NCBI GenBank assembly: GCA_017471245.1
Contig: JAFUVB010000034.1
Location: 32,769-96,768, forward strand
Origin: Prevotella sp.
GTDB lineage: Bacteria > Bacteroidota > Bacteroidia > Bacteroidales > Bacteroidaceae
Direction of reading: 5' to 3'
Length of the DNA: 64,000 nucleotides
Shown piece after piece: positions 5,474 through 53,897 of the stretch. The notes below the pieces were generated by a model. The model saw only the letters and a list, made by a program, of their open reading frames with translations. It had not been told where the DNA came from and ran no database searches. Both the position numbers and the translations under genes were made by a program. The first letter of the stretch is position 1; the number at the start of each line of letters is the position of its first letter.

Positions 5474-5547
5474 AAGACCTATAGGAAAAAGACAAATATA
5501 GTGTCGCTGCGCGTAAATCATTGATTGAAAGCAGACTATGAGATTTT

Positions 5548-5745
5548 ATGTGTCATCTGCTGCGTTACCTGCTGCGTCATCTGCTGCGTTTTTTCATTGA
5601 CTATTGACCATTGACCGTTGAGAATTGACCATTGACCGTTGAGGATTGACCATTGACCGTTGAGGATTGACCATTGACCATTGAGCATTGAACATTGGGA
5701 AATGCTCAGCAGGTAACGCAGCAGGTAACGCAGCGGGTAACACAT
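5548..5745. repeat. Inverted-repeat element R1: 12-bp-unit arms around a heptad array
   Basis: Left arm 5548-5589 and right arm 5707-5745 are imperfect inverted repeats. Each arm is about three copies of a 12-bp unit: CAGCAGGTAACG on the right, and its complement form CGTTACCTGCTG with CGTCATCTGCTG variants on the left. The intervening 117 nt are filled by the heptad array at 5597-5701. The same arm sequence recurs at 27204-27562. If transcribed or extruded, the arms could form a stem of about 40 bp. It lies between two convergent genes. Confidence 0.85.
5597..5701. repeat. Array of 15 heptanucleotide repeats
   Basis: Fifteen consecutive 7-bp units of the form TTGANNN (TTGACCA, TTGACCG, TTGAGGA and variants). 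The order CCA, CCG, GGA/GAA repeats, giving a 21-bp higher-order period. Related heptads occur at 27645-27750 and 52186-52606. An in-frame minus-strand ORF through it encodes a seven-residue repeat (LNGQWSI), which is a consequence of the 21-bp period rather than evidence of coding. Confidence 0.9.
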
Positions 5746-5864
5746 GGATTAAGGAAAGTAGTTGACAATCAGCGGTTTATGCGCAGCGACATTTGTTTTC
5801 CATTTTTTGTGTTTGGAGAAGTTTTTGAAGCACTTGTCAAGACCTTCTTTTTTCCATTTTAATA

Positions 5865-5945
5865 CCTATGTTTTTGATGGTCAAAACCTATGCTTTTGAT
5901 GGCTGAAACCTATGCTTTTGAAGGCTGAAACCTTAGTTTTCGCAT
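5865..5945. repeat. 22-bp tandem array with AAAACCTATG core
   Basis: CCTATG or CCTTAG occurs at 5865, 5887, 5909 and 5931, exactly 22 bp apart, each followed by a T-tract and preceded (from the second unit) by A3-A4. The core AAAACCTATGCTTTT is nearly self-complementary. A degenerate unit may start at 5843. The array ends just before the stop of the NUDIX gene at 5953. The rest of the 5474-5952 gap (5746-5842) shows no gene. Confidence 0.88.
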
Positions 5946-27093: not shown

Positions 27094-27128
27094 AGGATGC
27101 GTCTGCTCGTCAGGCGCATCCTTTATTA
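27094..27128 (+). terminator. Terminator of ppdK
   Basis: Stem AGGATGCG (27094-27101) with CGCATCCT (27115-27122), extended inside by CTG/CAG around a CTCGT loop, followed by TTATTA. It lies about 31 nt after the stop. Confidence 0.85.
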
Positions 27129-27203
27129 TATATTCCTACATCAAAAAGCGAATTTTGATGTATTTCTGCATAACCACTTGATTTTTAAGTTCTTATATAG
27201 AAT

Positions 27204-27562
27204 CATGTGTTACCCGCTGCGTAATCTGCTGCGTTACCTGCTGCGTATTTTCCTTGATCCATTTTTCCCCGAGTTGAAGGCGATAATTCAGTTTTTTTGA
27301 TGGATTCAGGGTTTCGTAAAACTTGAAAAGTTCAGAGGTTGTTTTCAATGGGCATGCTTAATAGGCGAGGGAAGGTTGGCAATTGCCAAAGGAAAACGAT
27401 CTATAGATTATGAAAGAAAACTCATTGGATTATGGAAAAACACTCATTAGATAGTGGAAATACATTCATTTGATAATGGAAAACACTCATTAGATAATGG
27501 AAAAACGCAAAAGAAAAATACGCAGCAGGTAACGCAGCAGATTACGCAGCAGGTAACACATG
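27204..27562. repeat. Inverted-repeat element R2: same 12-bp-unit arms as R1
   Basis: Left arm 27204-27252 and right arm 27514-27562 are about 49 bp each and differ at essentially one position (C/T). Each holds three 12-bp units, with the middle one reading CAGCAGATTACG on the right arm (CGTAATCTGCTG on the left). Where R1 has a different middle unit, both arms of R2 carry the same variant, so the two arms match each other within the element. The 261-nt loop holds the 22-bp array at 27401-27509 instead of heptads; 27253-27400 shows nothing I can name. Confidence 0.87.
27401..27509. repeat. 22-bp tandem array of a second sequence (CATTNGATNATGGAAA)
   Basis: CATT cores occur at 27423, 27445, 27467 and 27488 (spacing 22, 22, 21), with a degenerate first unit at 27401. 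Each is followed by GATTATGGAAA, GATAGTGGAAA or GATAATGGAAA. It lies inside the loop of R2. The sequence is unrelated to the AAAACCTATG arrays although the period is the same. Confidence 0.85.
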
Positions 27563-27644
27563 GTTTCTTTCAACTCTCTGTAAACCAAATGATTATGCAA
27601 AGATGCTTTAACGTTTCTTTTTTTCGTTGGAAGTGTTTGGAGAA

Positions 27645-27766: not shown

Positions 27767-27904
27767 CATAGGTTTTAAGGCTCAAAAACATAGATTTTGA
27801 GTAACGAGAGCATAGGTTTTGAGCAACGAGAGCATAGGTTTTGCGCGTTAAAAGTGTAGGTTTGAGCAGGAAGTGTATGTAGATTGAAAAATTAAAGCAT
27901 CGGT
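27767..27904. repeat. 22-bp tandem array with CATAGGTTTT core
   Basis: CATAGG, CATAGA or TGTAGG occurs at 27767, 27789, 27811, 27833 and 27855, exactly 22 bp apart. Weaker units follow near 27878 and 27898. It is the reverse-complement orientation of the array at 5865 (AGCATAGGTTTT against AAAACCTATGCT). It ends about 27 bp before the -33 box of the glucosaminidase gene. Confidence 0.88.
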
Positions 27905-52080: not shown

Positions 52081-52185
52081 CTTAGGTTTAAACAACCAAA
52101 ATCATAGTTATTGGCAATCAAAAGCATAGATTTCAGCTCTCAAAACATAAGTTTTTACTTCTCAAAAGCATAGGTTTTGAACCAT
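52081..52185. repeat. 22-bp tandem array with CATAGG core, uvrA-rpoD region
   Basis: CTTAGG or CATAG at 52081, 52103 and 52125, CATAAG at 52146 and CATAGG at 52169 (spacing 22, 22, 21, 23). Each is preceded by A-rich and followed by T-rich sequence. Same orientation as the 27.8-kb array. It runs directly into heptads at 52186. The 51904-52080 stretch before it shows no gene or repeat I can name. Confidence 0.86.
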
Positions 52186-52250: not shown

Positions 52251-52299
52251 TTCTTCAATGATTTTCACTGCTTCTTGCAATAAAAAATAGAATTATTCG

Positions 52300-52694
52300 G
52301 CACCTGAGCACAAACTATTGATAGTTAGGTAATTGCGAGAAATTAACTGGCACCAGATCCTACACCCGATCCTGCACCTAATGCGGCACCTACTGACGAT
52401 TTTAATCATATTGAAGAAACTATAACTAATATCGTGTTTCTTTACTATGAATCACTCATTGCTCATTGTATAATAGTCAAAGATCAATCCTCATTGGTCG
52501 ATGCTCAATGGTCAACGATCAATGTTCAATGGTCAACTGTCAATGTTCAATGGTAAACGGTCAATGCTCAATGGTAAAACGGTCAATGGTAAGCGGTCAA
52601 TGATTATAGCGTTAGGTGCCGGATCGGGTGCTGGTTCAGGTGCCAGTTAATTTCTCGCAATTGCCTAATTATCAAGTGTTTTTGCTCAGGTGCT
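52300..52694. repeat. Inverted-repeat element R4: 86-bp arms of a different sequence around heptads
   Basis: Left arm 52300-52385 and right arm 52609-52694 are inverted repeats. The core AATTGCGAGAAATTAACTGG plus the next four bases (52332-52355, matched at 52639-52662) is perfect over 24 bp, and both arms contain 12-bp units of the type NGCACCNGATCC. The 223-nt loop carries about 16 TCAATGG-type heptads between 52488 and 52606. Design as in R1 and R2, but the arm sequence is unrelated. Confidence 0.87.
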
Positions 52695-53024
52695 GGTAAA
52701 ACTTTTTTTTATATAGGGAGGGAGGGTTTAAAATGGACGTTACCTATCTATTTTTTTAGTTCTCAATTCAGGATTACTTTATTGTTCTAAAATCAAATTA
52801 TATCTCTTTATCTCATTCTCAATATATCCTATTTATCATAATGCCGATTATATTTTTTTTAATTGTAAAAATAAAAATGTGAAAATGTGGATTAATTTAA
52901 TTGAATTTAACCATATTAGGAGTACAACGTATTGTTTTTTTTTGTATTTTTGCAACGATTTTAGTATATAATTGTGTTATATGCCTGATTATCAGGTAAT
53001 TAAAAGATGTTTTAGGGTTAAAGG
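52695..53024. other. AT-rich gap upstream of rpoD
   Basis: No gene is visible in this 330-nt stretch. It holds an A+T-rich segment with a GGGAGGGAGGG run at about 52717-52727 and, near the end, TATTTTTG at 52945-52952, which matches the -7 consensus. No TTTG lies at the right distance upstream, so the rpoD promoter is tentative. The leader would be about 65 nt. Confidence 0.5.
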
Positions 53025-53897
53025 ATGAGACAACTAAAAATTCAAAAAAGTATTACAAACCGTTCAAGTGAGGCACTTGATAAGTATCTCGTTGAAATCG
53101 GACGAGCACCATTGATTTCCATCGATGAGGAAATTGAATTGGCACAAAAGATTCGCAAAGGTGGTCCCGAAGGTGAACGTGCAAAGGATAAACTGGTTAC
53201 TGCGAACCTCAGGTTTGTTGTTTCCGTTGCCAAACAATACCAACATCAAGGACTCACACTGACAGACTTGATTGACGAAGGCAATATCGGGCTGATTAAG
53301 GCTGCACAAAAGTTTGATGAGACGCGTGGGTTCAAGTTCATCAGCTATGCTGTTTGGTGGATTCGCCAGAGCATTCTGCAAGCTATTGCAGAGCAAAGTC
53401 GTATTGTGAGACTTCCTCTCAATCAGGTGGGCAGCTTAAGCAAGATAAATCATGAAATCAACAGATTCGAGCAGGAAAACCAGCGCCATCCAAGTGTTTC
53501 TGAATTATCAGAGGCAACCAACTTGGATGAAGAGAAGATTGGACAGAGTCTTGCTGCCGACGGACACCATGTAAGCATCGATGCTCCCTTCCAGGATGGC
53601 GAGGACAACTGTATGCTTGACGTGATGCCAAGTGGAGATGACAGCCGTACAGACCGCATGGTTGATCATGAAAGTATGGCTCAGGAGCTCAACACCGTGC
53701 TTTCAAAGGTGCTCAAGGAAAGAGAAATCACGATTATACGTGAGTGTTTTGGTATCGGATGCCACGAAAAAGGTCTTGAAGAGATTGGCGATCAGCTCGG
53801 GTTGACTCGTGAACGTGTACGCCAGATTCGCGAGAAGAGCATCGCGAAACTCAGAGATAGCGGAAACGCCAAAATCCTGATGAAGTACCTTGGATAA
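53025..53897 (+). CDS. rpoD: Primary RNA polymerase sigma factor (Bacteroidetes RpoD type)
   Basis: 290 residues. Housekeeping sigma factor of the short Bacteroidetes type that lacks most of region 1.1. Region 1.2 is at about 12-45 (SSEALDKYLVEIGRAPLIS). Region 2 has LVTANLRFVVSVAKQYQHQG, DLIDEGNIGLIKAAQKFD and FKFISYAVWWIRQSILQAIA. Region 3 is at about 130-200, and region 4 has GLTRERVRQIREKSIAKLR for -33 recognition. This factor reads the TTTG/TAnnTTTG promoters found elsewhere in the window. A perfect terminator follows. Confidence 0.97.
   Translation: MRQLKIQKSITNRSSEALDKYLVEIGRAPLISIDEEIELAQKIRKGGPEGERAKDKLVTANLRFVVSVAKQYQHQGLTLTDLIDEGNIGLIKAAQKFDETRGFKFISYAVWWIRQSILQAIAEQSRIVRLPLNQVGSLSKINHEINRFEQENQRHPSVSELSEATNLDEEKIGQSLAADGHHVSIDAPFQDGEDNCMLDVMPSGDDSRTDRMVDHESMAQELNTVLSKVLKEREITIIRECFGIGCHEKGLEEIGDQLGLTRERVRQIREKSIAKLRDSGNAKILMKYLG

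Follow-up and report, generated by a model that had tools for sequence, protein, structure and literature searches.

Elements R1, R2 and R3 in the window

The window, that is, the whole 64,000-nucleotide stretch of Prevotella sp. DNA that was analysed, contains a long inverted repeat, R2, whose arms at 27204-27252 and 27514-27562 are inverted copies of each other that differ at 2 of 49 positions (at 3 of 55 for the wider pair 27201-27255/27511-27565). When the region 27128-27640 was folded as RNA, the folding energy was -176.7 kcal/mol (z -11.7), which none of 100 shuffles equalled. These results confirmed the original prediction of a long, nearly perfect inverted repeat at 27204-27562, although the arms differ at two positions and not at about one as had been stated. 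As had also been described, each arm carries three 12-bp units, and the variant middle unit CAGCAGATTACG was present in both arms. A search of the whole window with Rfam 15 at the gathering threshold found two tRNAs only, neither of them at R2, and no transposase was found within R1-R3; the expectation that the repeat holds neither a known RNA gene nor a transposase was thus borne out.

Beyond the arms, R2 carries an additional inverted module that is conserved; the element therefore extends from about 27128 to 27630 and is larger than first reported (27204-27562). Using a model of this end module, we found three elements in the window: R1 at 5478-5825, R2 at 27128-27630, and R3 at 52279-52728. 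The first reading had overlooked both the end modules and R3, which carries other units. The features of R2 are as follows.

27128..27207, minus strand: left end module, reading outward to the left (end-module model, 32.8 bits, E 2.8e-9)
27172..27194, no strand: left core palindrome (model positions 14-36), with two putative back-to-back IHF-type half sites
27204..27252, no strand: left arm, three 12-bp units, 2 mismatches in 49 against the right arm
27253..27513, no strand: interior, containing a 22-bp tandem array at 27404-27504
27514..27562, no strand: right arm, inverted copy of the left arm with 2 mismatches in 49
27559..27630, plus strand: right end module (end-module model, 30.0 bits, E 2.2e-8)
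27572..27594, no strand: right core palindrome, degenerate (model positions 14-36)

We take WATCARNNNNTTR to be the IHF consensus, which may not be the preference of the host's own HU/IHF proteins. By reading, the outward half of the left core, AATCAAGTGGTTA, is an exact fit to this consensus, and the outward half of the right core is one base off.

R1 (5548-5745) had been assigned to the same arm family. Its units are indeed of this type, but its arms agree less (8 mismatches in 46 bp). Since R3 carries other 12-bp units, membership of the family is not determined by arm sequence; the arm identity of R3 (locus L145) was 0.73 in the 78-element comparison described below. The features of R1 and R3 are as follows.

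5478..5550, minus strand: R1 left end module (43.7 bits, E 1.1e-12)
5548..5593, no strand: R1 left arm, 8 mismatches in 46 against the right arm
5595..5697, no strand: R1 interior, minisatellite of the heptamer CATTGAC (tandem repeat, 14.7 copies, period 7)
5700..5745, no strand: R1 right arm, inverted copy of the left arm
5743..5825, plus strand: R1 right end module (51.5 bits, E 4e-15)
52279..52345, minus strand: R3 left end module (37.9 bits, E 7.2e-11)
52348..52395, no strand: R3 left arm, a different 12-bp unit of the CACCCGATCCTG type (sequence)
52472..52602, no strand: R3 interior, heptamer array (tandem-repeat detection)
52598..52645, no strand: R3 right arm, GGTGCCGGATCG type (sequence)
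52648..52728, plus strand: R3 right end module (33.3 bits, E 2e-9)

Tandem arrays of 22 bp (AAAACCTATGCTTTTGATGGCC type) flank one side of each element (5864-5933, 27789-27843, and 52118-52178). Elsewhere in the genome, a 22-bp array of the AAAACCTATGTTTT type was observed on one side only in 11 loci, which had been chosen for visible repeats. A lone weak core match (52978-53010; 11.8 bits, E 0.011) lies directly upstream of a sigma-70-type gene at 53025-53897.

A repeat family in the host genome

The host genome contains CAGCAGGTAACGCAGCA 91 times in forward and 94 times in reverse orientation when up to 2 mismatches are allowed; the reversed pattern gave no match. A second pattern, representing the outer unit, was found at 85 places compared with 8 for its control. 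Fifty-two loci (L031-L082) were drawn from the outer-unit places and from the first 100 CAGCAGGTAACGCAGCA matches, and reading of their arms and flanks showed that the ends share a nearly ungapped region of about 75 bp beyond the arms. The sequence-only model of the end module was built on 95 of 98 ends, three being omitted as shifted or at contig edges. It matched at least 150 ends in the genome (1258 candidates), most of which, by reading, belong to pairs that face outward. When 32 more loci (L114-L145) were examined, they had the same ends and in most cases different 12-bp units, for example GGTGCGGGATCG or CAGCGGGTGTCG. In total, 84 loci were read and 78 were used as pairs; L049, L054, L067, and L068 (contig ends) and L122 and L141 (one weak end) were dropped.

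The genome contains at least 78 paired elements with their ends facing outward. In each copy, a variable interior, often minisatellite DNA, is enclosed by inverted arms made up of 12-bp units, and the arms in turn by a pair of inverted end modules, each about 75 bp long. The distance between the modules was 549 bp or less in 77 of the 78 elements (median 263 bp); by arithmetic (the median plus two 75-bp modules, times 78), the repeat makes up about 0.9% of the genome. L031, the sole paired element with a long gene, has 1524 bp between its arms and an open reading frame (ORF) of 470 aa inside (L031:1881-3293). Several contigs of the assembly end within elements (L049, L054, L067, and L068), and L054 and L068 resemble two halves of one element.

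The repeat family is real and unusual, and has so far been seen in one genome. At E 1e-5, the end-module model matched 5 of 398 genus genomes including its own, with one match in each of the other four, and 1 of 399 family genomes (30 genera), namely its own; both searches covered one genome per species under stricter filters, by which weak matches are lost. The single matches in other species reached only 23-35 bits. The 12-bp unit with up to 1 mismatch occurred in 19 of 150 genus genomes, its own included, with one or two matches in each of the others. The exact double unit had no match among named genomes, nor did R2 match the plasmid collection. A viral contig (L359) contains the exact 24-base double unit; it was rejected as a chance match because it has no module match and the unit lies inside the open frame of a glycine-rich protein. 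None of the other genomes searched showed the family at strong scores.

The inverted ends, the small size, and the interiors free of transposase (78 elements, the 470-aa ORF of L031 being the only long gene) are those of a MITE. In a conventional MITE, a transposase acting in trans would move the element by using the end module as terminal inverted repeat, and the IHF-like site would serve a cofactor as in Correia elements. The occurrence of whole copies in which both ends are similar (e.g., L076/L125) accords with this, as does the absence of the element downstream of ppdK in five relatives with at least 500 bp of readable downstream sequence (by eye, 11 regions read). However, no common target duplication of 5 bp or more was found, the best 6-mer register being shared by 2 of 78 elements; this ranking would miss duplications of 2-4 bp in a minority of elements. 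Random module positions between invariant ones are also unlike copies of one master. Furthermore, a genome-wide search with PF01797, the sole transposase family searched for, found a single Y1 transposase gene with no end module nearby, which also sets the family apart from REPIN/RAYT systems. A conventional MITE is possible but not the explanation that we would expect to hold. The Y1 (IS200-like) gene itself (L192:1402-1857) has GC-rich palindromes, CCCAGGGC...GCCCTGGG, on both sides by reading, and perhaps represents a separate REP/RAYT pair.

Arm agreement and possible exchange between loci

The interiors of the elements were grouped by blastn into 23, 12, 7, and 3 loci, partly because minisatellites are shared. 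In the 12-locus group, the interiors of L121 and L123, L124, or L129, and those of L123 and L124, were 74-85% identical. The modules of these four elements were 0.42-0.62 alike between loci and 0.79-0.90 alike from left to right, and in the alignment of L121 and L123 the homology stops at the inner edge of both modules. Such sharing of interiors, among loci whose modules match left to right but are unrelated from one locus to the next, suggests cassette exchange. The remaining members of the group lack this pattern, and averages over whole clusters do not bring it out: left-right module identity was not higher than the highest of four comparisons between loci in the clusters of 12 (0.60 and 0.60) and 7 loci (0.51 and 0.65), the values for the 23-locus cluster being 0.61 and 0.55. 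This weighs against the mosaic-repeat reading given below. On the other hand, L039 and L133 are whole copies with their flanks included, and L126/L135 and L076/L125 have at least one module in common. Whole copying and cassette exchange therefore both seem to occur, exchange being judged from the few pairs among L121, L123, L124, and L129.

Another possibility is that an IHF-type site was duplicated in inverted form at each locus and that foldback cassettes, each comprising arms plus interior, are swapped between these duplications, with the arms rewritten pairwise. If true, the architecture would be inherited and the sequence free, and the core beside a CRISPR array, tRNA-Ser, and 22-bp palindromic arrays (see below) would mark a general site of IHF-assisted repeat growth in Bacteroidota. 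We regard this scheme as rather unlikely.

Left and right arms were compared over all 78 elements. The inner-arm identity was 0.80 for matched and 0.61 for mismatched pairs, and none of 2000 permutations exceeded 0.652. The corresponding values were 0.80 and 0.69 within the CAGCAGGTAACG set (48 loci) and 0.80 and 0.615 within the remaining 30 loci. The outer module also showed agreement (0.58 compared with 0.507; best permutation 0.543). By position, the excess of matched pairs was 0.17 over three 20-bp arm windows, 0.10 further inward, 0.07-0.12 in the module, 0.01 in the T-run, and about zero in the flanks. At twelve low-consensus module positions, the left-right agreement was 0.384 compared with 0.291, a value reached by none of 2000 permutations, whereas 89 of 2000 reached that of control positions beside the T-run. 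The agreement at low-consensus positions was carried by the 30 elements without CAGCAGGTAACG (0/2000). Its weakness in the 47 CAGCAGGTAACG-type elements (38/2000) is a point against the mosaic-repeat reading as a whole.

If the arms were paired as RNA, an excess of transitions toward G-U on one strand would be expected. The counts for the two strands were 137 and 139, showing no strand bias in the 70 of 78 elements that passed an identity cut of 0.6, and the spread of wobble direction over elements was no wider than binomial (chi2 60.9, 68 df). Arms that agree beyond mismatched pairs without G-U bias suggest homogenisation at the DNA level over an RNA hairpin; we favour a DNA-level process, conversion or other, as what keeps the arms alike. 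The original prediction had traced the agreement to selection for pairing or to conversion between arms: the agreement was found, RNA pairing was not supported, and conversion or another DNA-level process fits better. An occurrence restricted to one genome, with no pairing conserved, had been named as a refutation; half of this applies, in that the 12-bp unit hardly occurs outside this genome, whereas its many copies here retain their pairing. The architecture of the repeat is constant while the sequences of its two arms change together, and the family is a naturally occurring collection of inverted-repeat pairs in which conversion within bacterial foldbacks could be measured.

Pairing of the DNA itself might be selected, with a cruciform or single-stranded hairpin acting, for example, as a recombination or replication signal. 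An arm sequence that is free between elements, with complementarity kept and strand bias absent, is what such selection would leave. However, the agreement fades outward, many arms are only 0.5-0.8 alike, and plain conversion would account for this as well; we consider such selection unlikely. A transcribed hairpin RNA, for instance one that is regulatory or is cleaved by RNase III, is still less probable. The very stable fold of R2 would suit it, and in the outer modules one wobble direction did predominate within individual elements (chi2 129.5, 60 df), but this predominance correlates with base skew in the flanking DNA (Spearman 0.46, p 1.9e-5) and is thus explained by strand-biased mutation; moreover, the arms have no wobble excess and Rfam gave no match. 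Finally, a segment flipped between the arms by a recombinase with IHF as helper, which the inverted arms, the inverted IHF-like sites outside them, and the related interiors in both orientations between loci might suggest, is very improbable, as many interiors are minisatellites.

The end-module core and related systems

The module at each end is conserved and inverted, with AA-N4-CTGAT-N-ATCAG-N4-TT at its centre. In the profile of 156 ends, which is symmetric about position 25, near-invariant positions (A14 and T36, 100%; T21, 98%; A29, 96%) alternate with random ones (16-19 are near random); further outward follow a T-run at 61-65 and then G73 (79%) within a G-rich stretch. This alternation fits a protein-binding site better than a decaying copy. 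Compared with the IHF consensus given above, the core is readable as two back-to-back IHF-type sites. Of the 156 ends, 146 have at least one half that differs from WATCARNNNNTTR by no more than 1 base, compared with none of 312 flank windows; the contrast is partly circular, as the ends had been aligned by the model. Such halves numbered 97 outward and 98 inward, and both were found in 49 ends. The genome has 6 matches to HU/IHF-family genes, 4 of them strong.

Taken together, we hold with moderate confidence that R2 is a copy of a high-copy, apparently non-coding mosaic repeat that provides docking sites for HU/IHF-family proteins and whose arms are homogenised at the DNA level. A host protein of this family would bind the modules and bend the DNA, and the copies may act as chromosomal docking sites in the manner of RIBs, a class of BIMEs in E. 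coli. The match between the arms would be kept by gene conversion or by template switches within the foldback as it is replicated; interiors might also move between loci via shared arms. The outward-ended pairs, the dyad core, the IHF-like ends, the lack of G-U bias in the arms, and the shared interiors argue for this mosaic-repeat reading. If the modules do bind an HU/IHF protein, they would form a dense set of nucleoid-protein sites in this phylum; to our knowledge, few such sites have been mapped in Bacteroidota.

RIBs are dispersed extragenic palindromic repeats with IHF sites that lie at the 3' ends of transcription units and contain REPs. The present family is likewise a dispersed palindromic repeat with IHF-like, here predicted, sites. 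Unlike RIBs, it contains no REP sequence by reading and has neighbouring genes in all orientations, which speaks against the docking view: by crude ORF calls, 21 of 71 placed elements lie between convergent, 20 between divergent, and 30 between tandem genes. The intergenic location is itself a judgement, because 25 of the 71 are partly overlapped by an ORF of at least 80 codons, mostly short.

We found no description of the element in the literature searched, mostly papers outside subscription. BrickBuilt, a MITE of Porphyromonas gingivalis, is described as having 19 copies, 23-nt repeats, and 12-nt IS5-type ends (PMC4596501). Both families are intergenic and multi-copy, with a minisatellite within inverted ends, a narrow host range, and no transposase inside, whereas ours has arms of 12-bp units, modules of about 75 bp with an IHF-like core, and at least 78 paired copies; its tandem periods are 7, 12, and 22, and its ends, by reading, differ from the published table. 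Correia/NEMIS elements of Neisseria are also small inverted-repeat elements; their 155-bp form, almost only intergenic, has an IHF site bound in vitro, and they show one internal IHF site, 24-bp ends, and TA plus target duplications (PMC2229807, PMC10969869). In contrast, the IHF-like sites here lie at both ends outside the arms, which are element-specific. PINSR of Prevotella intermedia is a high-copy intergenic repeat as well (188 bp, 177 and 184 copies), limited to a few related species and of unknown function, and is stated to have no terminal inverted repeats (PMC4755523). Our family has inverted ends and differs on this point from PINSR as described. Overall, the family is best filed as a new variety of intergenic mosaic repeats (MITE/RIB-like) and not as a hairpin RNA gene.

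The core motif was also found beyond the family. With up to 1 mismatch, it occurred in 26 of 60 genus genomes, its own included, compared with 1 match overall for the reversed control. Among named genomes, the exact 31-base core was found in 9 stretches of six assemblies, all Bacteroidota and titled Aquimarina, Cytophagales, Chitinophagales, or Prevotellaceae. In viral contigs, a 28-base core gave at least 120 stretches compared with 1 for the reversed pattern, and 23 of the 32 phage records matching one viral core site were Bacteroides or Azobacteroides phages, all with weak E-values. The IncW plasmid R7K has a near copy of the core between its stb genes and transfer genes, an interval that is presumably the location of an R388-type oriT. 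IHF is reported to bind the R388 oriT specifically (PMC3264647). The viral, phage, and R7K settings suit an IHF-type site without proving one.

In an uncultured Prevotellaceae genome (RUG178), the exact core (L225:1026-1056) is followed within a few bases by a CRISPR-like array, starting with its first repeat and with 22 repeat copies listed, mostly at 77-bp spacing; this placement resembles a leader IHF site. In four genus genomes (L157, L199, L202, and L209), the core palindrome is just past the 3' end of tRNA-Ser(TGA), and in other genus genomes 22-bp palindromic arrays of other sequence adjoin the core. A general association of the core with tandem arrays in other genomes was striking by eye and was rejected, as 9 of 29 loci showed it against 7.3 expected from a crude control. 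The core also lies within other dispersed repeats (L223, L227, L228, and L224 at 126-187, 674-735, 864-928, and 1415-1479); such core-bearing repeats occur in Cytophagales and Aquimarina genomes, with inverted copies in Cytophagales.
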